Shown here: positions 50,263 through 57,589 of the stretch, piece after piece | Layout of the letters: the number at the start of each line of letters is the position of its first letter | How positions within the stretch are numbered: the first letter of the stretch is position 1 | Origin: Mariniphaga sp. | GTDB taxonomy: Bacteria; Bacteroidota; Bacteroidia; Bacteroidales; Prolixibacteraceae | Direction of reading: 5' to 3' | DNA: 64,000 nt | Assembly (NCBI GenBank): GCA_024636975.1 | Contig: JAGXGA010000027.1 | Location: 1 to 64,000, forward strand | Translations under genes and position numbers: made by a program | The notes under the pieces: generated by a model | Seen by the model: the letters and a program-made list of their open reading frames with translations, nothing else | Database searches by the model: none | What the model was told of the DNA's origin: nothing

Positions 50263-51027
50263 ATGGAACAAAAAGCTTGTGTTATATTTTGCAGGTGTGG
50301 AGCGGGTATTGCAGAGACCTCGTATGATGAGATTTCAGAAGGATTAAAGGATCTGGATACAGACGTGTATGAGATGCATGATTTATGTGCTTTTTCATTA
50401 CATGAAAAGGATGTTCTGAATACTATTGGCAGTAAGTATCAAAAAAAAATAGTAGTAGCATGTTACCCCAGGGCAGTAAAAAACATGCTTATTCAGGGCG
50501 GTGTTGATTTGGGCAGTTATGATGTTTTAAACTTTAAAGAGCTGTCGGCAACAAAAATACTGGAGAACCTTAAAACTGAACATCATTTTAAGGATGGACA
50601 AGCTCATTACAATATACAAGTTTCCGGGCTCAAGGTTCCGGCGTGGTTCCCTGTAATCGATGAATCACTTTGTTCGCTTTGCGGGAAGTGTGCCCGGTTT
50701 TGTCTTTTTGGTGTATACAGCTTTAATAAAAGAAGCCTGAAAGTGGTAAATCCACTGGCCTGTAAAAATAACTGTCCTGCCTGTGGCCGTACTTGCCCGA
50801 CTTCAGCCATTATGTTTCCAAGGTTGAACGAAAATACGGTTTTGGCAGGCGCTGAACCTGGCAGCATGATGAAAAAAACCGGAGAAGGTGGTTTGATGAT
50901 GATGCTGAATGACCGAAACAGGGATCGTAAAAACATTTTCAGACAAGGTGTGATGCAGCAGGCGGAAGAAGAACGACGGAAAGCTGTTGCAGAAATAAGA
51001 GCAACTATGTTGAAGAAGAATCCCTGA
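50263..51027 (+). CDS. [4Fe-4S] ferredoxin-type protein, first gene of the terpenoid operon
   Basis: This 254-aa protein has an N-terminal HdrA-like domain (VIFCRCGAGIAET, then VVACYPRAVKNML). A ferredoxin domain follows with CSLCGKCARFC and the second half CKNNCPACGRTCP (residues about 145-190). The C-terminal part is helical and charged (QQAEEERRKAVAEIRATM). It could pass electrons to the adjacent radical SAM enzyme, which needs a reductant. No predicted membrane helix. Function beyond electron transfer is unknown. Confidence 0.75.
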   Translation: MEQKACVIFCRCGAGIAETSYDEISEGLKDLDTDVYEMHDLCAFSLHEKDVLNTIGSKYQKKIVVACYPRAVKNMLIQGGVDLGSYDVLNFKELSATKILENLKTEHHFKDGQAHYNIQVSGLKVPAWFPVIDESLCSLCGKCARFCLFGVYSFNKRSLKVVNPLACKNNCPACGRTCPTSAIMFPRLNENTVLAGAEPGSMMKKTGEGGLMMMLNDRNRDRKNIFRQGVMQQAEEERRKAVAEIRATMLKKNP

Positions 51028-51098
51028 TAGGCAGGTAATAATTTTCTCAGATAATTGGCGTATTTCTTAACTTTTACTTTTTTCTATAAAATTACATA

Positions 51099-52271
51099 TT
51101 GAAACGAATTATACAAAATACCGACAGGCGTTGTCTCTGGAAATTGTTTTACAATCTGGGCGTTAAGGGTATGCTTGGTTTTAATCGTTTTCAACGGCGA
51201 TTGAAAAAAGGGGAATTTTTTCCGGCATTTCATTTTATTTCAGTTACCGATGATTGCAATTTAAATTGCCAGGGGTGCTGGGTTACCGGAAAAAAACAGA
51301 ATAATCGCCTTGAAGAGGGACATTTGAACCAGATAATATCGGAGACAAAAGCCAAAGGATCCTATTTTTTTGGAATTCTGGGAGGTGAGCCGTTGTTGTA
51401 CAAATCCCTGTTTTCAGTTTTCAGGAAACATTCTGATTGTTATTTCCAGCTGTTTACAAATGGAACTCTGCTTAATGCTAAAGTAGCAGAAGAACTGCGT
51501 CAGTGTGCCAACGTAACCCCGCTTATCAGTTTTGAGGGTGACGAGCAAATAGCTGATGTGCGCAGAGGAGGAAAAAATGTATACCGCCGCACATGGGAAG
51601 CAATTGAGAATGCCACCCGGTCGGGATTGTTTACAGGGGTAGCCATGAGTGTTTGTAAATCGAACCTGGAACTGGCATTGTCTCCGGCATTCATAAATGA
51701 ATTGATTCAAAAAAAGGTGGCCTATTTATGGTATTATATTTACAGGCCGGTAGGAGAGAACTCTTCACCCGAACTGGCGTTAAGCAGAGAGGAAATACAG
51801 CAGCTGAGGGAATACATGGTGAACGCCCGTACAATGTACGATATAGTAATTATTGATGCCTACTGGGATGAAAATGGGAAAGGTCTGTGTCCGGCAGCAT
51901 CGGGTTTAAGTCACCATATAAATGCTTCGGGTTATGTGGAGCCTTGTCCTGTAATTCAGTTTGCTGCAGATAAAACTGGTACTCAACCACTGGATGAACT
52001 TTATCGGTCATCGGCTTTTCTAAAAGATTTGAAGCAGGAAATTCCACAGAAAACTTCAGGCTGCATAATTATGGAAGATCCTTCATGGGTCGCCAATTTT
52101 GCAGAAAAATATAAAGCAGCAGATACATCAGGCAGGGGCAATGAAGCAGAACGTTTGCGTAATATGTCCCCTGTTGCAAGTCATGGTTCGGGAACCCCTG
52201 TACCGGAGAAAAGCTGGATGTACCGGTTTGCCAAGAAGAAAGCATTTTTTGGATTAGGCGCATATGGATAA
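51099..52271 (+). CDS. Radical SAM enzyme of the terpenoid operon
   Basis: This 390-aa protein has a CNLNCQGC cluster motif (CxxxCxxC, about residue 52), GILGGEPLLYK for SAM binding and LFTNGTLLN. A SPASM-like C-terminal part carries CPAASGLSHHINASGYVEPCPV. It starts with TTG at 51099; the N-terminal block KRIIQNTDRRCLWKLFYNLG looks conserved enough to keep. The substrate is unknown. HpnH of hopanoid synthesis is a radical SAM enzyme acting on a polycyclic terpene, which offers a parallel but not an orthologue. 3 bp separate it from the DUF116 gene. Confidence 0.75.
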   Translation: MKRIIQNTDRRCLWKLFYNLGVKGMLGFNRFQRRLKKGEFFPAFHFISVTDDCNLNCQGCWVTGKKQNNRLEEGHLNQIISETKAKGSYFFGILGGEPLLYKSLFSVFRKHSDCYFQLFTNGTLLNAKVAEELRQCANVTPLISFEGDEQIADVRRGGKNVYRRTWEAIENATRSGLFTGVAMSVCKSNLELALSPAFINELIQKKVAYLWYYIYRPVGENSSPELALSREEIQQLREYMVNARTMYDIVIIDAYWDENGKGLCPAASGLSHHINASGYVEPCPVIQFAADKTGTQPLDELYRSSAFLKDLKQEIPQKTSGCIIMEDPSWVANFAEKYKAADTSGRGNEAERLRNMSPVASHGSGTPVPEKSWMYRFAKKKAFFGLGAYG

Positions 52272-52274
52272 TTT

Positions 52275-53846
52275 ATGTTTGAAATTAACCGCATATTAAA
52301 AGTACCACCCCTTTCAGGAATCAGGAATGATTTGCGGGACAGGGTACGATTGTTTGTCTCAGAACATAAGGTATTGCCTCCATCCACACTTGAGAAGCTG
52401 GAGGGCTTTGCAAATGTGATTCTGAATGATTCAGGCCTGGATAAGGAATTCCTGGATTTCACTATGGTGTTGCTTGGAAATGAAATCTGGCGGGAAACAG
52501 TTACAGCTACACCATATAACAGGCGATTGCTGTTGTTGCCGCAATGCCTGCGCAACGATCATTTGTGCCAGGGTACTTTTGATGAACTTGGGTTAATTTG
52601 TTCAGGCTGCAAAAACTGCCGAATAGATTCCATATTGGATAAGGCCGAAAAACTTGGGTACACCACACTGGTTGCTGAAGGTACAACTGTAGCCATCGGT
52701 CTGGTTGAGGAAGGAGCCATTGATGCTGTTATAGGTGTGAGTTGTATGTCGGTTTTGCAACGTTCGTTCGGGCCGGTAACCCGCGCAGCATTGCCTGGTA
52801 TTGGTCTTCCTCTTTTGGGCGATGGTTGTTCAAATACCGCAGTTGATTATTCCTGGTTATTTGAGGAAATGGAGAATTTTTCAGGCATCAGTAACCATAC
52901 GCCTTTGTCGGTTTCGTTGTTGAAAAATAATGTAGCCGATTATTTCCAGCCACCGGTTTTGAATTCTTTTTTTGCTAATGGAAACGAAACAGAAAAGCTT
53001 GCATTACAGGTAATGAGTATGGGCGGCCAACGTATTCGCCCACTCTTGGCTGCAATGGCATACAATTCCTATTGCAGCAGTCCCCCGGAGCTGATTCAAC
53101 AAACGCTTGCATTGGTGATCGAATGTTTTCATAAAGCATCGCTTGTGCATGATGACATTGAAGACGACGATGAAATGCGATACGGAAAACCTGTGTTGCA
53201 TCAAACAGAGGGTATTCCTGTTGCTATTAATGTGGGCGATTACCTTATTGGCAAAGGTTACAGCCTGCTTTCCCAACTACCACTTGATGCAGTTATACTT
53301 GCTGAATGTTTTTCAATAGTTTCGGCTTCACATGTTAAGCTTTCGCAAGGGCAGGGAGCTGATTTGTTGCTGAATGCGCAAATTGCCGGGAAATCAGTTA
53401 ACGATGTGCTTGAGATATTCCGTCTGAAAACAGGAGAGGCAGTAAAGGTAGCCTTGTTAATTGGTGCTGTTGCCGGGGAAGCATCGCAGGCTGAAAAAGA
53501 TACCTTAAGCAGATTTTCGGAGCTATTTGGAATTGCTTATCAGATCAGGGATGATTTGCTTGAGTTCCGTGAAGAGCCTTATACTTCTGATTTTTTCGAT
53601 TATCCATTTATTCTGACACTGTTGCAGCAGGAAATGCATGAAGACCTTGCCTCGTTTATGCACATGCTTGAAGCGAACGATGAGGAGCTTTTCAGAAGCT
53701 ACTGCAGCAGTTATGATGTGGAAAAAAAGGCAGATGATTATCTGAAGGAATACATTGATAAATGCTACCTTGAGCTGGATAATCTTCAGAATCAAAAGCT
53801 TCGTCTGGGTTTATACGGTGTAATGGGAAAGGTTTATAAATCGTAA
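52275..53846 (+). CDS. Fusion of a DUF116 domain and a polyprenyl synthetase
   Basis: This 523-aa protein joins two domains. Residues about 1-220 are DUF116-like with a Cys-rich site (LLLPQCLRNDHLC, LICSGCKNC) that may bind metal or a cluster. Residues about 235-520 are an isoprenyl diphosphate synthase: MSMGGQRIRPLLAAM (GGQR instead of GGKR), the first Asp-rich motif HDDIEDDDEMRYG and a second motif IRDDLLEF (DDLLE). The residue five before the first Asp motif is Ala, which in known enzymes permits chains longer than C15-C20. The degenerate second motif suggests altered specificity. Very tight in the operon. Confidence 0.75.
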   Translation: MFEINRILKVPPLSGIRNDLRDRVRLFVSEHKVLPPSTLEKLEGFANVILNDSGLDKEFLDFTMVLLGNEIWRETVTATPYNRRLLLLPQCLRNDHLCQGTFDELGLICSGCKNCRIDSILDKAEKLGYTTLVAEGTTVAIGLVEEGAIDAVIGVSCMSVLQRSFGPVTRAALPGIGLPLLGDGCSNTAVDYSWLFEEMENFSGISNHTPLSVSLLKNNVADYFQPPVLNSFFANGNETEKLALQVMSMGGQRIRPLLAAMAYNSYCSSPPELIQQTLALVIECFHKASLVHDDIEDDDEMRYGKPVLHQTEGIPVAINVGDYLIGKGYSLLSQLPLDAVILAECFSIVSASHVKLSQGQGADLLLNAQIAGKSVNDVLEIFRLKTGEAVKVALLIGAVAGEASQAEKDTLSRFSELFGIAYQIRDDLLEFREEPYTSDFFDYPFILTLLQQEMHEDLASFMHMLEANDEELFRSYCSSYDVEKKADDYLKEYIDKCYLELDNLQNQKLRLGLYGVMGKVYKS

Positions 53847-53850
53847 CAGT

Positions 53851-54684
53851 GTGACTGACCAATATGTACTTGCACCGGTTTATCAGCAATTCACAGGATT
53901 TGTGAAAAAAGGATTTGCCGCATTGAATGAAGAACATCAGGAAGAGGTAAAGAGGTTTATTAAATCATGTAAGCAGGGGAATGGTATGTTTACTGATCGT
54001 GCGGGTACCCCTGATTATTATTATTCATTGTTTGGTACATGGCTTTCATTGGGCGTGGGATTAATAGCTACAAAGGAAGACTCTACACAATTCACCCGGC
54101 AGTATGATGGCAAATTTAAAAACCCAATAGATGAGTTTGCTTCTTTGTTGATTAAGGCTTCATTGCCGGGAGATAACTTTGATAAACCTTCTTACTTTTA
54201 TTTGCTGAAAAGATTATTTTTAAATAAAAGTCATGTAAGCTTTTTTTACCGCCTTTTTTTGTTTGTCCTGATTGATGATGCCATTTACCGGAAAAAGTGG
54301 CTGTATACAGCAGCCCGTTGGATTTTAATTTTTACTTCACCTCCTGCAGGCGCTCCGTGCAGCATACAGGCTGCTTATATTGTGGGCAGGCATGAGACAG
54401 GGCTGGATACTAAAAAAGAACAGAAAATATTACTTGATTTTTTTGTTGCAGGAAAAGGATTCAAAGCATTTATGGATATTGGTGAGGTCGATTTGTTATC
54501 AACAGCTGTTGCTTTATTTGCCCTGAAAACTACAGGCGCTGATTTAAGGAAGATTGCTCCTGATTGTCTGGAATTGATTCAGCAGAATTATGATGGCGGA
54601 GCTTTTTTAGCAGGAAATGGTGATCAGGTCCGCGATTTGGAGTATACGTTTTATGGACTGCTGGCACTGGGAATTTTAGTTTAA
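53851..54684 (+). CDS. Short prenyltransferase/squalene-oxidase-repeat-like protein
   Basis: This 277-aa protein begins with GTG at 53851, 4 bp after the fusion gene. It has a mostly helical composition with weak alpha-barrel repeats (SLFGTWLSLGVGLI, DLEYTFYGLLALGIL) as in prenyltransferase or squalene-cyclase beta domains, but I see no DxDD motif. It may be a partner subunit of the next gene's cyclase. The call rests mainly on position and repeat-like ends. Confidence 0.55.
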   Translation: MTDQYVLAPVYQQFTGFVKKGFAALNEEHQEEVKRFIKSCKQGNGMFTDRAGTPDYYYSLFGTWLSLGVGLIATKEDSTQFTRQYDGKFKNPIDEFASLLIKASLPGDNFDKPSYFYLLKRLFLNKSHVSFFYRLFLFVLIDDAIYRKKWLYTAARWILIFTSPPAGAPCSIQAAYIVGRHETGLDTKKEQKILLDFFVAGKGFKAFMDIGEVDLLSTAVALFALKTTGADLRKIAPDCLELIQQNYDGGAFLAGNGDQVRDLEYTFYGLLALGILV

Positions 54685-56486
54685 TGATGGAAAAGAAAGA
54701 TCTGGAACAACGTTTAAATGAATTGGGAAGGCTGCTGGTTTCTGAATTAAAACCGGAAGGATACTGGGAAGGCAGGCTTTCATCGAGTGCTTTGGCAGTA
54801 GCGGTTTCAGTTACTGCTTTGTATTTTGATAGTGAGAAGGAGCATGCTTCCCGCATTGAGAGAGGGCTGAACTGGTTGAAACGGAGCATAAATCAGGATG
54901 GTAGCTTTGGTGATACACCTGAAAGTCCGGGGAATGTGAGCACTAGTCTGTTGGTTTATGCAGCGGCTAACCTTTTTTCTGAGAAGCTGGACTGGATAAA
55001 AACTTTCCAGGTAAAAATTGCTGATTACCTGTCCAGTCAAAATATCGATGTGCATTCATCACAGGTTTCTGAAGCAATTTTGAGACACTATCAAAATGAT
55101 TATACCTTTTCGGTACCCATACTTGCAATGTGTGGTTTGTGCGGAATTCCCGGCCAAGATGCTTTTGACCATATTCCTCAATTGCCTTTTGAACTGGCCT
55201 TACTTCCCAGACGTTTTTACCGGCTACTAAATCTGAGTGTTGTAAGTTATGCTATACCTGCCCTGGTGGCGGTTGGTATCGTTATCTTCAAAAAAAAGAA
55301 TTCCGGTTTACTATGGAAGAGCATCCGAAAGTTCTCCATACCCAATGCTATGGCGATTCTTCAGCGTATGCTTCCTGCCAGCGGAGGGTACCTTGAGGCA
55401 AGTCCTTTAACAGCATTTGTTTCATTAAGCCTTATTAACTCTGGATATCGTGACACAGAAGTGGTTAAACAAGGAATTCATTTTTTGAAAACCACTCAGC
55501 GGGAGGATGGCAGCTGGTCAATTGATGTTGATTTGTCGACATGGGTTACTTCGCTTGCAGTTAAAAGTTACCGCTCCGGGTTATCAGGCTTTGTGAATAC
55601 CGATTTACAGGATAAAATAACCGATCACCTCAAACTGATTCAAAACCAAAAGTTACATCCCTTTAACGGAACGGGGCCCGGTGGCTGGGGATGGACCAAC
55701 TTTTCAGGTTCGGTTCCTGATGGCGATGATACTCCGGGGGTTATTCTGGCGCTGATGAAACTTCAGCCGAAAGACAGAATAATGAAGGAGGTACTTGCAG
55801 GCTGCTACTGGTTATCTAAGCTGCAAAATAAGGATGGAGGATTTCCAACCTTTTCCCGAGGGTGGGGGAAACTGCCTTTTGACCAAAGCTGTGCCGATTT
55901 AACAGGTCATAATCTTCTGGCATTTTCATCAGTGATTGAAAATTACCACAGTGAGTTGCCTGCAACTACAAGAAAAGAACTTATTGCATCATTAAAAAAG
56001 GCATTGCAGTACCTTACCCGGCACCAGCGAAAGGATGGAAGCTGGCTGCCACTTTGGTTCGGCAATCAGCAGATGCAGGACCATACCAATCCGGTTTACG
56101 GCACTGCCAAAGTGTTAACCTATTTAAAAGATGCATCTGCCCATGTATGGTTGCCGGAGAATCTGAAAGAACAGCTTAAATCATTATATGTAAAAGGCAC
56201 ATCCTATCTTATTGCTGTGCAAAATCAAGATGGAAGCTGGGGTGGCGGAAAAGATATCATTGGAACAACGGAGGAAACATCACTGGCTTTATCAGCACTT
56301 GCTTCCGTTGCAAATTTTGATGCTTGCATCAGGGGCTTAAAATGGCTGGATTCTGTTTATTCTGAAAAAGGGTTGAAACCTGCACCTATTGGATTGTATT
56401 TTGCCTCGTTGTGGTACGACGAGCAATTATATCCGTTAACGGCTTACCTTGAAGCTGTTTCAAGAGTACTTGAAGTTCAGGAATAG
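54684..56486 (+). CDS. Squalene-hopene-cyclase-like class II terpene cyclase
   Basis: This 600-aa protein has alpha-barrel QW-type repeats (INQDGSFGD, QREDGSWSI, QNKDGGFPTF, QRKDGSWLP, QNQDGSWGGG). It also has the class II acid motif DGDDTP (Asp346-Gly-Asp-Asp349), close to where DxDDTA lies in squalene-hopene cyclase. The Asp-Asp pair protonates a double bond to start polycyclisation. The length is a little below the usual 630-730 aa. It overlaps the previous gene by one base. No squalene synthase is nearby, so its substrate may be a polyprenyl chain made by the fused synthetase. Confidence 0.85.
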   Translation: MMEKKDLEQRLNELGRLLVSELKPEGYWEGRLSSSALAVAVSVTALYFDSEKEHASRIERGLNWLKRSINQDGSFGDTPESPGNVSTSLLVYAAANLFSEKLDWIKTFQVKIADYLSSQNIDVHSSQVSEAILRHYQNDYTFSVPILAMCGLCGIPGQDAFDHIPQLPFELALLPRRFYRLLNLSVVSYAIPALVAVGIVIFKKKNSGLLWKSIRKFSIPNAMAILQRMLPASGGYLEASPLTAFVSLSLINSGYRDTEVVKQGIHFLKTTQREDGSWSIDVDLSTWVTSLAVKSYRSGLSGFVNTDLQDKITDHLKLIQNQKLHPFNGTGPGGWGWTNFSGSVPDGDDTPGVILALMKLQPKDRIMKEVLAGCYWLSKLQNKDGGFPTFSRGWGKLPFDQSCADLTGHNLLAFSSVIENYHSELPATTRKELIASLKKALQYLTRHQRKDGSWLPLWFGNQQMQDHTNPVYGTAKVLTYLKDASAHVWLPENLKEQLKSLYVKGTSYLIAVQNQDGSWGGGKDIIGTTEETSLALSALASVANFDACIRGLKWLDSVYSEKGLKPAPIGLYFASLWYDEQLYPLTAYLEAVSRVLEVQE

Positions 56487-56510
56487 ATGATTTATGAATT
56501 AATCATTTTT
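56487..56510 (+). terminator. Weak terminator after the terpenoid operon
   Basis: ATGATT (56487-56492) pairs with AATCAT (56501-56506), followed by TTTTT. It overlaps the end of the convergent PLP-enzyme gene. The stem is only 6 bp. Confidence 0.4.
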
Positions 56511-57589
56511 ATTTCCTCTCCTTGGGTAGTGAGGTATCTTCTTGCAAGATTGGCAGTCAGGCATGAATGTATGGGAATGATTTCCACCAGTTCTCCAATC
56601 TTGAAAAAATCAAAATTTTTCTGTGAGACTTTTATTATACCATGTTCCTGTGAAAGCCGGGCAACATAATTTCGTTCATTAAGTATTTTTTTTTCACCTT
56701 TTTTGTTGATAGCAATGCGACCGTAAAACTCTTTCCCATCAGTGTTCTGCATCGAATCTTTTGAAAGGTGAATGGCACCACCGTAAATTACAACTTCATT
56801 TCGGGAAGGATGTTTGGCAACAATAGGGCAAACCATCCGAACTGCGATATCATCGAATGTACATACTCCCAGGCTTTGTTGCATTAAATCATAAAAAACA
56901 AAATTTCCTGGTCTGATTTCATCTACCTCGCTGAAATTGTTGCAAATTGAACAGGAAGGCGTATCGCCAATGCTGATTTCAACATTCGGAAAATCGGAGG
57001 CATACCGTTGTTTCAGCGACTTAAGTTTTAGCAGGGCATCAAAATGTCGACTGAAGATTTCATTGGTGGAAAGCGCTGAATATGTTAACCCGTTATGGGT
57101 TAGGAAACCTTTGAAATTTAGCTTTTTATTGGTGGCAATAACTTCAAGGATTGCATCAAGTTTACTTGTTTTTGAAGTAATAATACCAGTTCGGTTATAA
57201 CCTGTATCAACTTTTATATAAACTCCAGCAGGAGCAGAAATGTGTTTTGCCAGTATTTCTGCTGTCTCCTTATTCTCCAGTGTCAGGTTCAGATTAATAT
57301 TTGCGGCCAACCGATTAATGTTATTCATTTCAAGTACATTCAGAGGGAAGGCAATTGTAATGTCGTCCCATTCGTCGGCAGCAAAGTATTCTGCCATTTG
57401 AACCGAAGAAACAGTAATGGCACTTACGCCAAAATTGCGAAACCATTCTCCAACAACCACCGATTGATGGGTCTTAAAATGGGGTCTGAAATGCAAATTG
57501 TTATCACTGGCTTTTTGTGCCATGCGCTCAATATTTCTAAGGCATATTTCTTTATCAATCACCAATGTTGGCCGTGTTATATTTGTCAT
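56492..57589 (-). CDS. D-threonine aldolase / D-serine dehydratase-like PLP enzyme
   Basis: This 365-aa protein is of the alanine-racemase-like DSD1 fold. The PLP Lys is in FRPHFKTHQ (about residue 39). A C-terminal metal motif is IPIHSCLTANLARR (His and Cys ligands). Typical substrates are D-threonine or D-serine. It is the last gene of the minus-strand group and its stop lies 5 bp from the end of the terpenoid operon. Confidence 0.85.
   Translation of the reverse strand: MTNITRPTLVIDKEICLRNIERMAQKASDNNLHFRPHFKTHQSVVVGEWFRNFGVSAITVSSVQMAEYFAADEWDDITIAFPLNVLEMNNINRLAANINLNLTLENKETAEILAKHISAPAGVYIKVDTGYNRTGIITSKTSKLDAILEVIATNKKLNFKGFLTHNGLTYSALSTNEIFSRHFDALLKLKSLKQRYASDFPNVEISIGDTPSCSICNNFSEVDEIRPGNFVFYDLMQQSLGVCTFDDIAVRMVCPIVAKHPSRNEVVIYGGAIHLSKDSMQNTDGKEFYGRIAINKKGEKKILNERNYVARLSQEHGIIKVSQKNFDFFKIGELVEIIPIHSCLTANLARRYLTTQGEEIKMINS

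Follow-up and report, generated by a model that had tools for sequence, protein, structure and literature searches.

A widely conserved five-gene cassette of Bacteroidales and Planctomycetota suggests an isoprenoid cyclization pathway built around a DUF116–polyprenyl diphosphate synthase fusion

The window analyzed here is a stretch of 64,000 nucleotides from a Mariniphaga sp. (contig JAGXGA010000027.1 of assembly GCA_024636975.1), a member of the Bacteroidales whose genome assembly comprises 67 contigs and totals 5.76 Mb. It contains a cassette of five genes, numbered 1 to 5 in Table 1, that encode, respectively, an HdrA-like iron–sulfur (Fe-S) protein, a radical S-adenosylmethionine (SAM) enzyme, a fusion of DUF116 with a polyprenyl diphosphate synthase, a single-toroid protein and a cyclase resembling squalene–hopene cyclase (SHC). 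An earlier note, made from the sequence of the window, had described five plus-strand genes with gaps of 71, 3, 4 and -1 bp and had assigned the five types of product; open reading frame (ORF) calls yielded identical values, and the Pfam, NCBIfam and profile matches agree with the assignments. The first start codon of gene 2 is TTG, and that of gene 4 is GTG. A convergent gene on the minus strand (56492-57589) lies 3' of the cassette. Scans for promoters (18 versus 15.1 expected) and terminators (10 versus 7.2 expected) were uninformative.

Table 1. Coordinates of the cassette genes and of selected domains and motifs within the window
Feature	Coordinates	Strand	Basis
Gene 1, HdrA-like Fe-S protein	50263..51027	+	ORF call, Pfam/NCBIfam, PDB profile
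Gene 2, radical SAM enzyme, twitch/SPASM-like Cys set	51099..52271	+	ORF call, Pfam/NCBIfam, PDB profile
Gene 3, DUF116–polyprenyl diphosphate synthase fusion	52275..53846	+	ORF call, Pfam, model, Foldseek
Gene 4, single alpha/alpha-toroid (Prenyltrans-like) protein without DxDD	53851..54684	+	ORF call, profile, model
Gene 5, SHC-like class II terpenoid cyclase	54684..56486	+	ORF call, Pfam, PDB profile
Gene 2 radical SAM cluster motif CX3CX2C, residues 53-60	51255..51278	+	alignment
Gene 3 DUF116 domain, residues 48-198	52416..52868	+	Pfam, alignment
Gene 3 polyprenyl synthetase domain	52995..53585	+	Pfam, alignment
Gene 5 DGDD catalytic-acid motif, residues 346-349	55719..55730	+	alignment

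Alignments were built from the window protein and the proteins that passed a length filter (39 of 72 for gene 1, 42 of 75 plus the protein of locus L077 for gene 2, 43 of 74 for gene 3, 42 of 65 for gene 4 and 42 of 66 for gene 5). The Pfam search with gene 1 produced weak 4Fe-4S matches alone, under the curated cut-offs; its best NCBIfam match was HdrA (1.7e-11), far under the cut-off of that model, and the top match of a profile search against the PDB was again HdrA (5odc, 4e-9). Twelve Cys residues, namely C10, C12, C42, C67 and eight within two ferredoxin-type motifs, are conserved without exception in the 40 relatives aligned, and the product of gene 1 is a probable electron donor. The gene 2 protein belongs to the Radical_SAM family of Pfam (7e-15), with SkfB as the top match in the PDB profile search (6efn, 1.5e-18). 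Its six Cys residues, invariant in 44 of 44 sequences, comprise the CX3CX2C motif and the set C264-X13-GX4C-...-C322; the latter fits the SPASM/twitch motif, a C-terminal CX9-15GX4C...C, and suggests a putative auxiliary cluster. HpnH, which the earlier note had offered as a precedent for this enzyme, did not hold up: gene 2 scored 39.1 bits, under the HpnH cut-off of 225.05, SkfB- and ScmF-type models scored better, and an HpnH-type assignment was rejected.

In gene 3, a DUF116 domain (3.1e-32) with seven invariant Cys residues (C91, C98, C109, C112, C115, C157 and C185) is joined to a polyprenyl_synt domain (1.6e-39). The first Asp-rich motif of the synthase half is DDIED (residues 293-297); the DDxxD pattern and the Ala/Ser pair at positions -5/-4 (HKASL) are both present in 64 of 64 gene 3 proteins, small residues at these positions being of the kind that favors long chains in such synthases. 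Gene 3 has the two Asp-rich motifs and the match to the synthase fold that are expected of a polyprenyl diphosphate synthase. A Foldseek search with the predicted structure (predicted local distance difference test score, pLDDT, 90.8) returned, among the matches listed, isoprenyl diphosphate synthases aligned with the synthase half, the best being a geranylgeranyl diphosphate (GGPP) synthase, and the best PDB profile match was a heptaprenyl synthase. Since synthases took up the entire Foldseek list, the structure comparison was uninformative about the DUF116 half. Because the window genome encodes two further polyprenyl synthases, gene 3 is not the housekeeping enzyme.

Gene 4 had a sub-threshold Pfam match to Prenyltrans alone (0.019), whereas its planctomycete homolog (L105:8092-8985) matches PF00432 at 1.3e-12. 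The predicted structure is all-helical and confident (pLDDT 92.3). The beta subunit of RabGGTase was detected by profile search (6e-6) and came first in the structure comparison (E 2.5e-3, template modeling score 0.43), in which no match reached E<=0.001. These matches would be expected if gene 4 were related, as a bacterial version, to the beta subunit of protein geranylgeranyltransferase and the cassette were a protein-prenylating system. We consider such a system highly improbable because, judged from the consensus, the conserved D-x-E-Y-T motifs of gene 4 seem to lack the His expected as a zinc ligand in the protein prenyltransferase beta family, because no alpha subunit was seen, and because gene 5 encodes a DxDD cyclase.

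The gene 5 protein contains both SQHop_cyclase_C (3.5e-28) and SQHop_cyclase_N (3.3e-17) domains, and SHC is its best PDB profile match (7e-27), also the best across the full protein; its score with the NCBIfam hopene_cyclase model (84.4 bits) is under the cut-off of 431.1 bits. The DGDD motif and QW-type repeats reported in the earlier note were both located, the repeats as four QW-like copies. DxDD is unchanged throughout the alignment (43 of 43 sequences) and also occurs in 16 of 16 copies from planctomycetes. In SHC (Alicyclobacillus, PDB 1gsz), the regions around DxDD and DVTAH can both be aligned with gene 5, the His of DVTAH corresponding to the invariant H409. No relative of the cyclase was found on viral contigs. 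Judged by motifs and family matches, a terpenoid function of the cassette is strongly suggested, and the intact DxDD agrees with the isoprenoid cyclization proposed in the earlier note.

A single-protein search of 395 genomes of the class recovered the window genome and one other only; therefore, a two-sequence alignment of the radical SAM protein was used to scan 84,980 species genomes, and the best 80 of the 96 relatives were kept. Of these 80 loci, 68 keep the complete set of five genes with order and strand unchanged, and eight of the 12 incomplete loci lie at a contig border. Across the four successive junctions, adjacent genes are separated by at most 120 bp at 67 of 73, 70 of 75, 67 of 69 and 58 of 66 loci. 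The closest named cassettes are those of Mariniphaga and Sunxiuqinia, and pN/pS ratios (nonsynonymous to synonymous differences) against close relatives range from 0.13 to 0.43, rough values given that synonymous sites are near saturation. The cassette is thus a conserved unit. The earlier note's proposal of one linked system is borne out by this arrangement, by the co-occurrence in Planctomycetota and by the downstream redox linkage described below; the contrary outcome that it had named, separation and functional unlinking of the genes in relatives, was judged not to apply, with 68 of 80 loci in order. Because the fusion was found in only 13 of 295 sampled genomes of the order, the cassette is a minority trait in Bacteroidales. 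In midpoint-rooted trees of genes 2 and 3, Bacteroidota do not form one clade, so an old transfer of cassette genes is possible.

Several individual loci deviate from the common layout. In Draconibacterium orientale (L046, ~12.7-15.7 kb), genes 4 and 5 are each split into two ORFs, which may reflect either decay of this cassette or errors in the sequence. A Culturomica metagenome-assembled genome (L081:9662-17684) has other genes between genes 2, 3 and 4, and gene 5 was not found there. An extra ORF of the gene 3 family (334 aa) precedes the cassette at L034, a CobW-like gene lies directly upstream of gene 1 at the Bacteroidales locus L026, and histidine kinase and LytTR regulator genes are located upstream of gene 1 at several gut Bacteroidales loci (within L050-L085). 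An apparent occurrence in Bacillota (L068, called Eubacteriales) was rejected: among 249 genomes of the phylum, the fusion was detected in that genome alone, and since its neighborhood matches that of the Parabacteroides locus L072, misbinning is likely.

The co-occurrence of the fusion with a DxDD cyclase and a radical SAM gene, which the earlier note had suggested checking across genomes, was confirmed in Planctomycetota, where 246 genomes were searched with the respective profiles. The fusion was detected in 62 genomes (E<=1e-40), the cyclase in 57 (E<=1e-60) and the radical SAM protein in 60, with 51 strong matches; the nine weak ones (E 1e-61 to 1e-70), all in genomes without the fusion, were set aside, and the overlap would be 51 of 60 if they were counted. 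The cyclase accompanies the fusion in 56 of the 62 fusion genomes and occurs without it in one genome of the 246 (Fisher p 3e-47, ignoring shared ancestry), and a close radical SAM homolog does so in 51 of 62 and never without it (p 2e-42, with the same proviso); all three are found together in 50 genomes. Based on hand-entered positions, with split matches left out, the fusion lies within 12 kb of the cyclase in 45 of 52 genomes. For the radical SAM gene, the corresponding figure is 33 of 49, and in seven of these 49 genomes it is located 116-544 kb from the fusion on one contig. Among 20 planctomycete neighborhoods, the cyclase is present in 16, gene 4 in 13, a CobW-type GTPase in nine and a GcvH-like (lipoyl-type) protein in 12, with the lipoyl-lysine recognized by eye in 12 of 12.

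Alternatively, the product could be a secondary metabolite of the diterpenoid or sesterterpenoid type, in which case gene 3 would produce a C20-C25 chain and gene 5 would have a role comparable to that of drimenyl or copalyl diphosphate synthases. Gene 5 shares the DxDD motif with drimenyl diphosphate synthase (7xq4), and its C-terminal domain scores 54.4 bits with that enzyme versus 53.6 bits for the best single domain with SHC; furthermore, a GGPP synthase tops the Foldseek matches of gene 3. However, gene 5 is about 600 residues long compared with 514, the residues preceding the first Asp-rich motif of gene 3 look long-chain-like, in keeping with the heptaprenyl synthase that heads its profile matches, neither tailoring oxygenases nor a class I terpene synthase were recognized in the loci, and the cassette is stable across deep lineages, unlike most secondary metabolite clusters. 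Accordingly, we regard a secondary metabolite as unlikely, if still worth keeping in mind.

A second Bacteroidales lineage (L048-L088 without L077) includes 23 loci with gene 5 and at least 5.5 kb of downstream sequence. There, the cassette is followed by genes for PQQ-type propellers at all 23 loci, for NHL-type proteins at 22, for NapH-like proteins at 19 and for NapG-like proteins at 18; at L048, NapG, NapH, propeller, NuoEF-like and NuoG/GltD-like genes directly precede gene 1. The window genome carries a NapH-like homolog on contig C21 (43% identity, 7e-110). The region L126:2298-17686 of this contig encodes PQQ-type propellers and NHL-type, NapG-/NapH-like, NuoEF-like and NuoG/GltD-like proteins, and this block keeps the internal order of the related one that adjoins the cassette elsewhere in the Bacteroidales. 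The linkage in the second lineage and the related block in the window genome are new findings of this analysis and suggest, short of proof, a functional tie between the redox block and the cassette.

Gene 1 resembles HdrA of methanogens, and together with the GcvH relatives it gives the cassette a likeness to the sHdr/lipoate-binding protein systems; unlike these, the cassette includes isoprenoid genes, and HdrB and HdrC were not recognized in the neighborhoods in a non-exhaustive look. DUF116 has been described as metal-binding, probably flavodoxin-like and tied to electron transfer (PMC5898192, 2015). In the passages of that paper on DUF116, the neighbors of archaeal DUF116 genes are redox genes, and the same fusion as in gene 3 is mentioned in Pirellula staleyi (Psta_0175), with no cassette, cyclase or radical SAM link given for it. 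Genes 1-3 and the lipoyl protein might accordingly form an electron-transfer unit for which the isoprenoid genes supply only a lipid anchor or carrier. The archaeal neighbors, the HdrA-like gene 1, the lipoyl-type protein at 12 of 20 planctomycete loci and the NapGH-type block all fit, but the radical SAM enzyme and the two toroid proteins would be unexplained unless the lipid itself is the carrier, and we find this explanation unlikely.

The origin of the substrate was addressed by searching PF00494, the squalene/phytoene synthase family, in 39 genomes carrying a gene 2 homolog (L085 was left out). No match was found in 20 of the 39, including six Parabacteroides isolate genomes; one of the 20 is the L081 genome, the locus of which has no gene 5, so that 19 of the 38 genomes with an observed cyclase have no PF00494 match. 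The window itself contains no squalene synthase, as the earlier note had stated. Elsewhere in the genome, where the note had asked for absence to be verified, a PF00494 gene does exist, the sole match (contig C38), yet it belongs to a carotenoid-type cluster (G000:C38, L008:8745-14774) in which it is followed by CrtI-like, CruF-like and other carotenoid-type genes. Given this location, a squalene synthase elsewhere with ordinary hopanoids as the sole product, an outcome that the note had set against its own proposal, was judged not to apply. In addition, PF10776 (tetraprenyl-beta-curcumene synthase) is absent from 38 of 38 genomes, with a positive B. subtilis control. Squalene cannot be the general substrate because 20 of 39 genomes are without PF00494, the window genome's copy is in a carotenoid cluster and the Bacillus C35 enzyme is absent; independence from squalene is well supported for half of the searched genomes, in line with the earlier note.

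An ordinary hopanoid-type route, in which squalene or a carotenoid precursor supplied by another locus would be cyclized by gene 5, could invoke the DxDD motif, QW repeats and DVTAH-type His region shared with SHC and the presence of PF00494 in the other genomes, including that of the window. We nevertheless consider it quite improbable: the genomes without PF00494 include isolates, the copy of the window genome lies in a carotenoid-type cluster, the cassette brings its own prenyl synthase, and gene 2 is not of the HpnH type by cut-off. Drafts can miss genes; with 20 of 39 genomes lacking the synthase, a hopanoid assignment of the cassette was rejected. The other precedent cited in the earlier note, the Bacillus C35 route (heptaprenyl synthase, tetraprenyl-beta-curcumene synthase and SqhC), is similar in that a regular polyprenyl diphosphate reaches an SHC-family cyclase and in that gene 3 is best matched by a heptaprenyl synthase. 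It fails as an assignment, and was rejected, in the absence of PF10776 (0 of 38); the cassette, moreover, adds Fe-S and radical SAM genes. The hopanoid- or sesquarterpene-like membrane lipid envisaged in the earlier note is thus a conjecture as to the product.

We propose that the cassette probably encodes a pathway devoted to a polycyclic isoprenoid, with a starting compound other than squalene. An all-trans polyprenyl diphosphate, with a chain that probably exceeds C20, would be formed by the synthase half of gene 3, and gene 1 would pass low-potential electrons to the DUF116 Fe-S half of gene 3 for a reductive step on the chain. The DxDD acid of gene 5 would then protonate the chain end and cyclize it, with the gene 4 toroid binding the chain or handing it over, and the radical SAM enzyme would finally modify an unactivated carbon of the scaffold. 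The probable partner of the product in Bacteroidales is an extracytoplasmic redox chain that comprises NuoEF/NuoG-like, NapH-like and NapG-like proteins together with propellers; this redox role, like the DUF116 step, is a hypothesis. In a more specific version, which we put forward as a long shot, the product would be a cyclic, redox-active isoprenoid lipid of a new class, shuttling electrons between an NADH-linked NuoEF/NapH complex and extracytoplasmic Fe-S/propeller proteins in anaerobic Bacteroidales, the DUF116 half being an iron–sulfur reductase that removes diphosphate from, or couples, the polyprenyl chain, as an oxygen-free substitute for squalene synthase.

Several observations weigh against this proposal. 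PF00494 matches were obtained in 19 of the 39 genomes (the match in G414 is weak, and another comes from G429, a doubtful bin), and a squalene-like substrate would be compatible with the data where a synthase exists, all the more as gene 5 scores best with SHC across its full length. Loci L069, L070, L077 and L081 are without part of the gene set for no clear contig-end cause. The second Asp-rich motif of gene 3 ends in E rather than D in the window lineage (DDxxE, versus DDxxD in the other sequences shown). At the loci of the first Bacteroidales lineage, which includes the window, propellers accompany the cassette at one of 27 and NHL-type, NapH-like and NapG-like genes at none; the 20 planctomycete neighborhoods include propellers in three and no NapG- or NapH-like genes, and the data on genome-wide co-occurrence of the redox block with the cassette cover one genome. 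The pathway steps, the chain length and the product are themselves read from gene content.

In the literature searched, no published account of the cassette was found, judging by listings and the beginnings of abstracts and with subscription papers mostly uncovered. The cassette is a new combination of known enzyme families in a widely conserved pathway, with hosts that include planctomycetes and Bacteroidales of the gut, among the latter a strain of Parabacteroides distasonis. The classic examples of cyclic isoprenoids in membranes are the hopanoids and sterols derived from squalene, which serve as geological biomarkers. If the proposal is correct, squalene-free isoprenoid cyclization would yield a further class of lipids, one that escapes current markers, and DUF116 would gain its first testable function, tied to an electron-transfer block.

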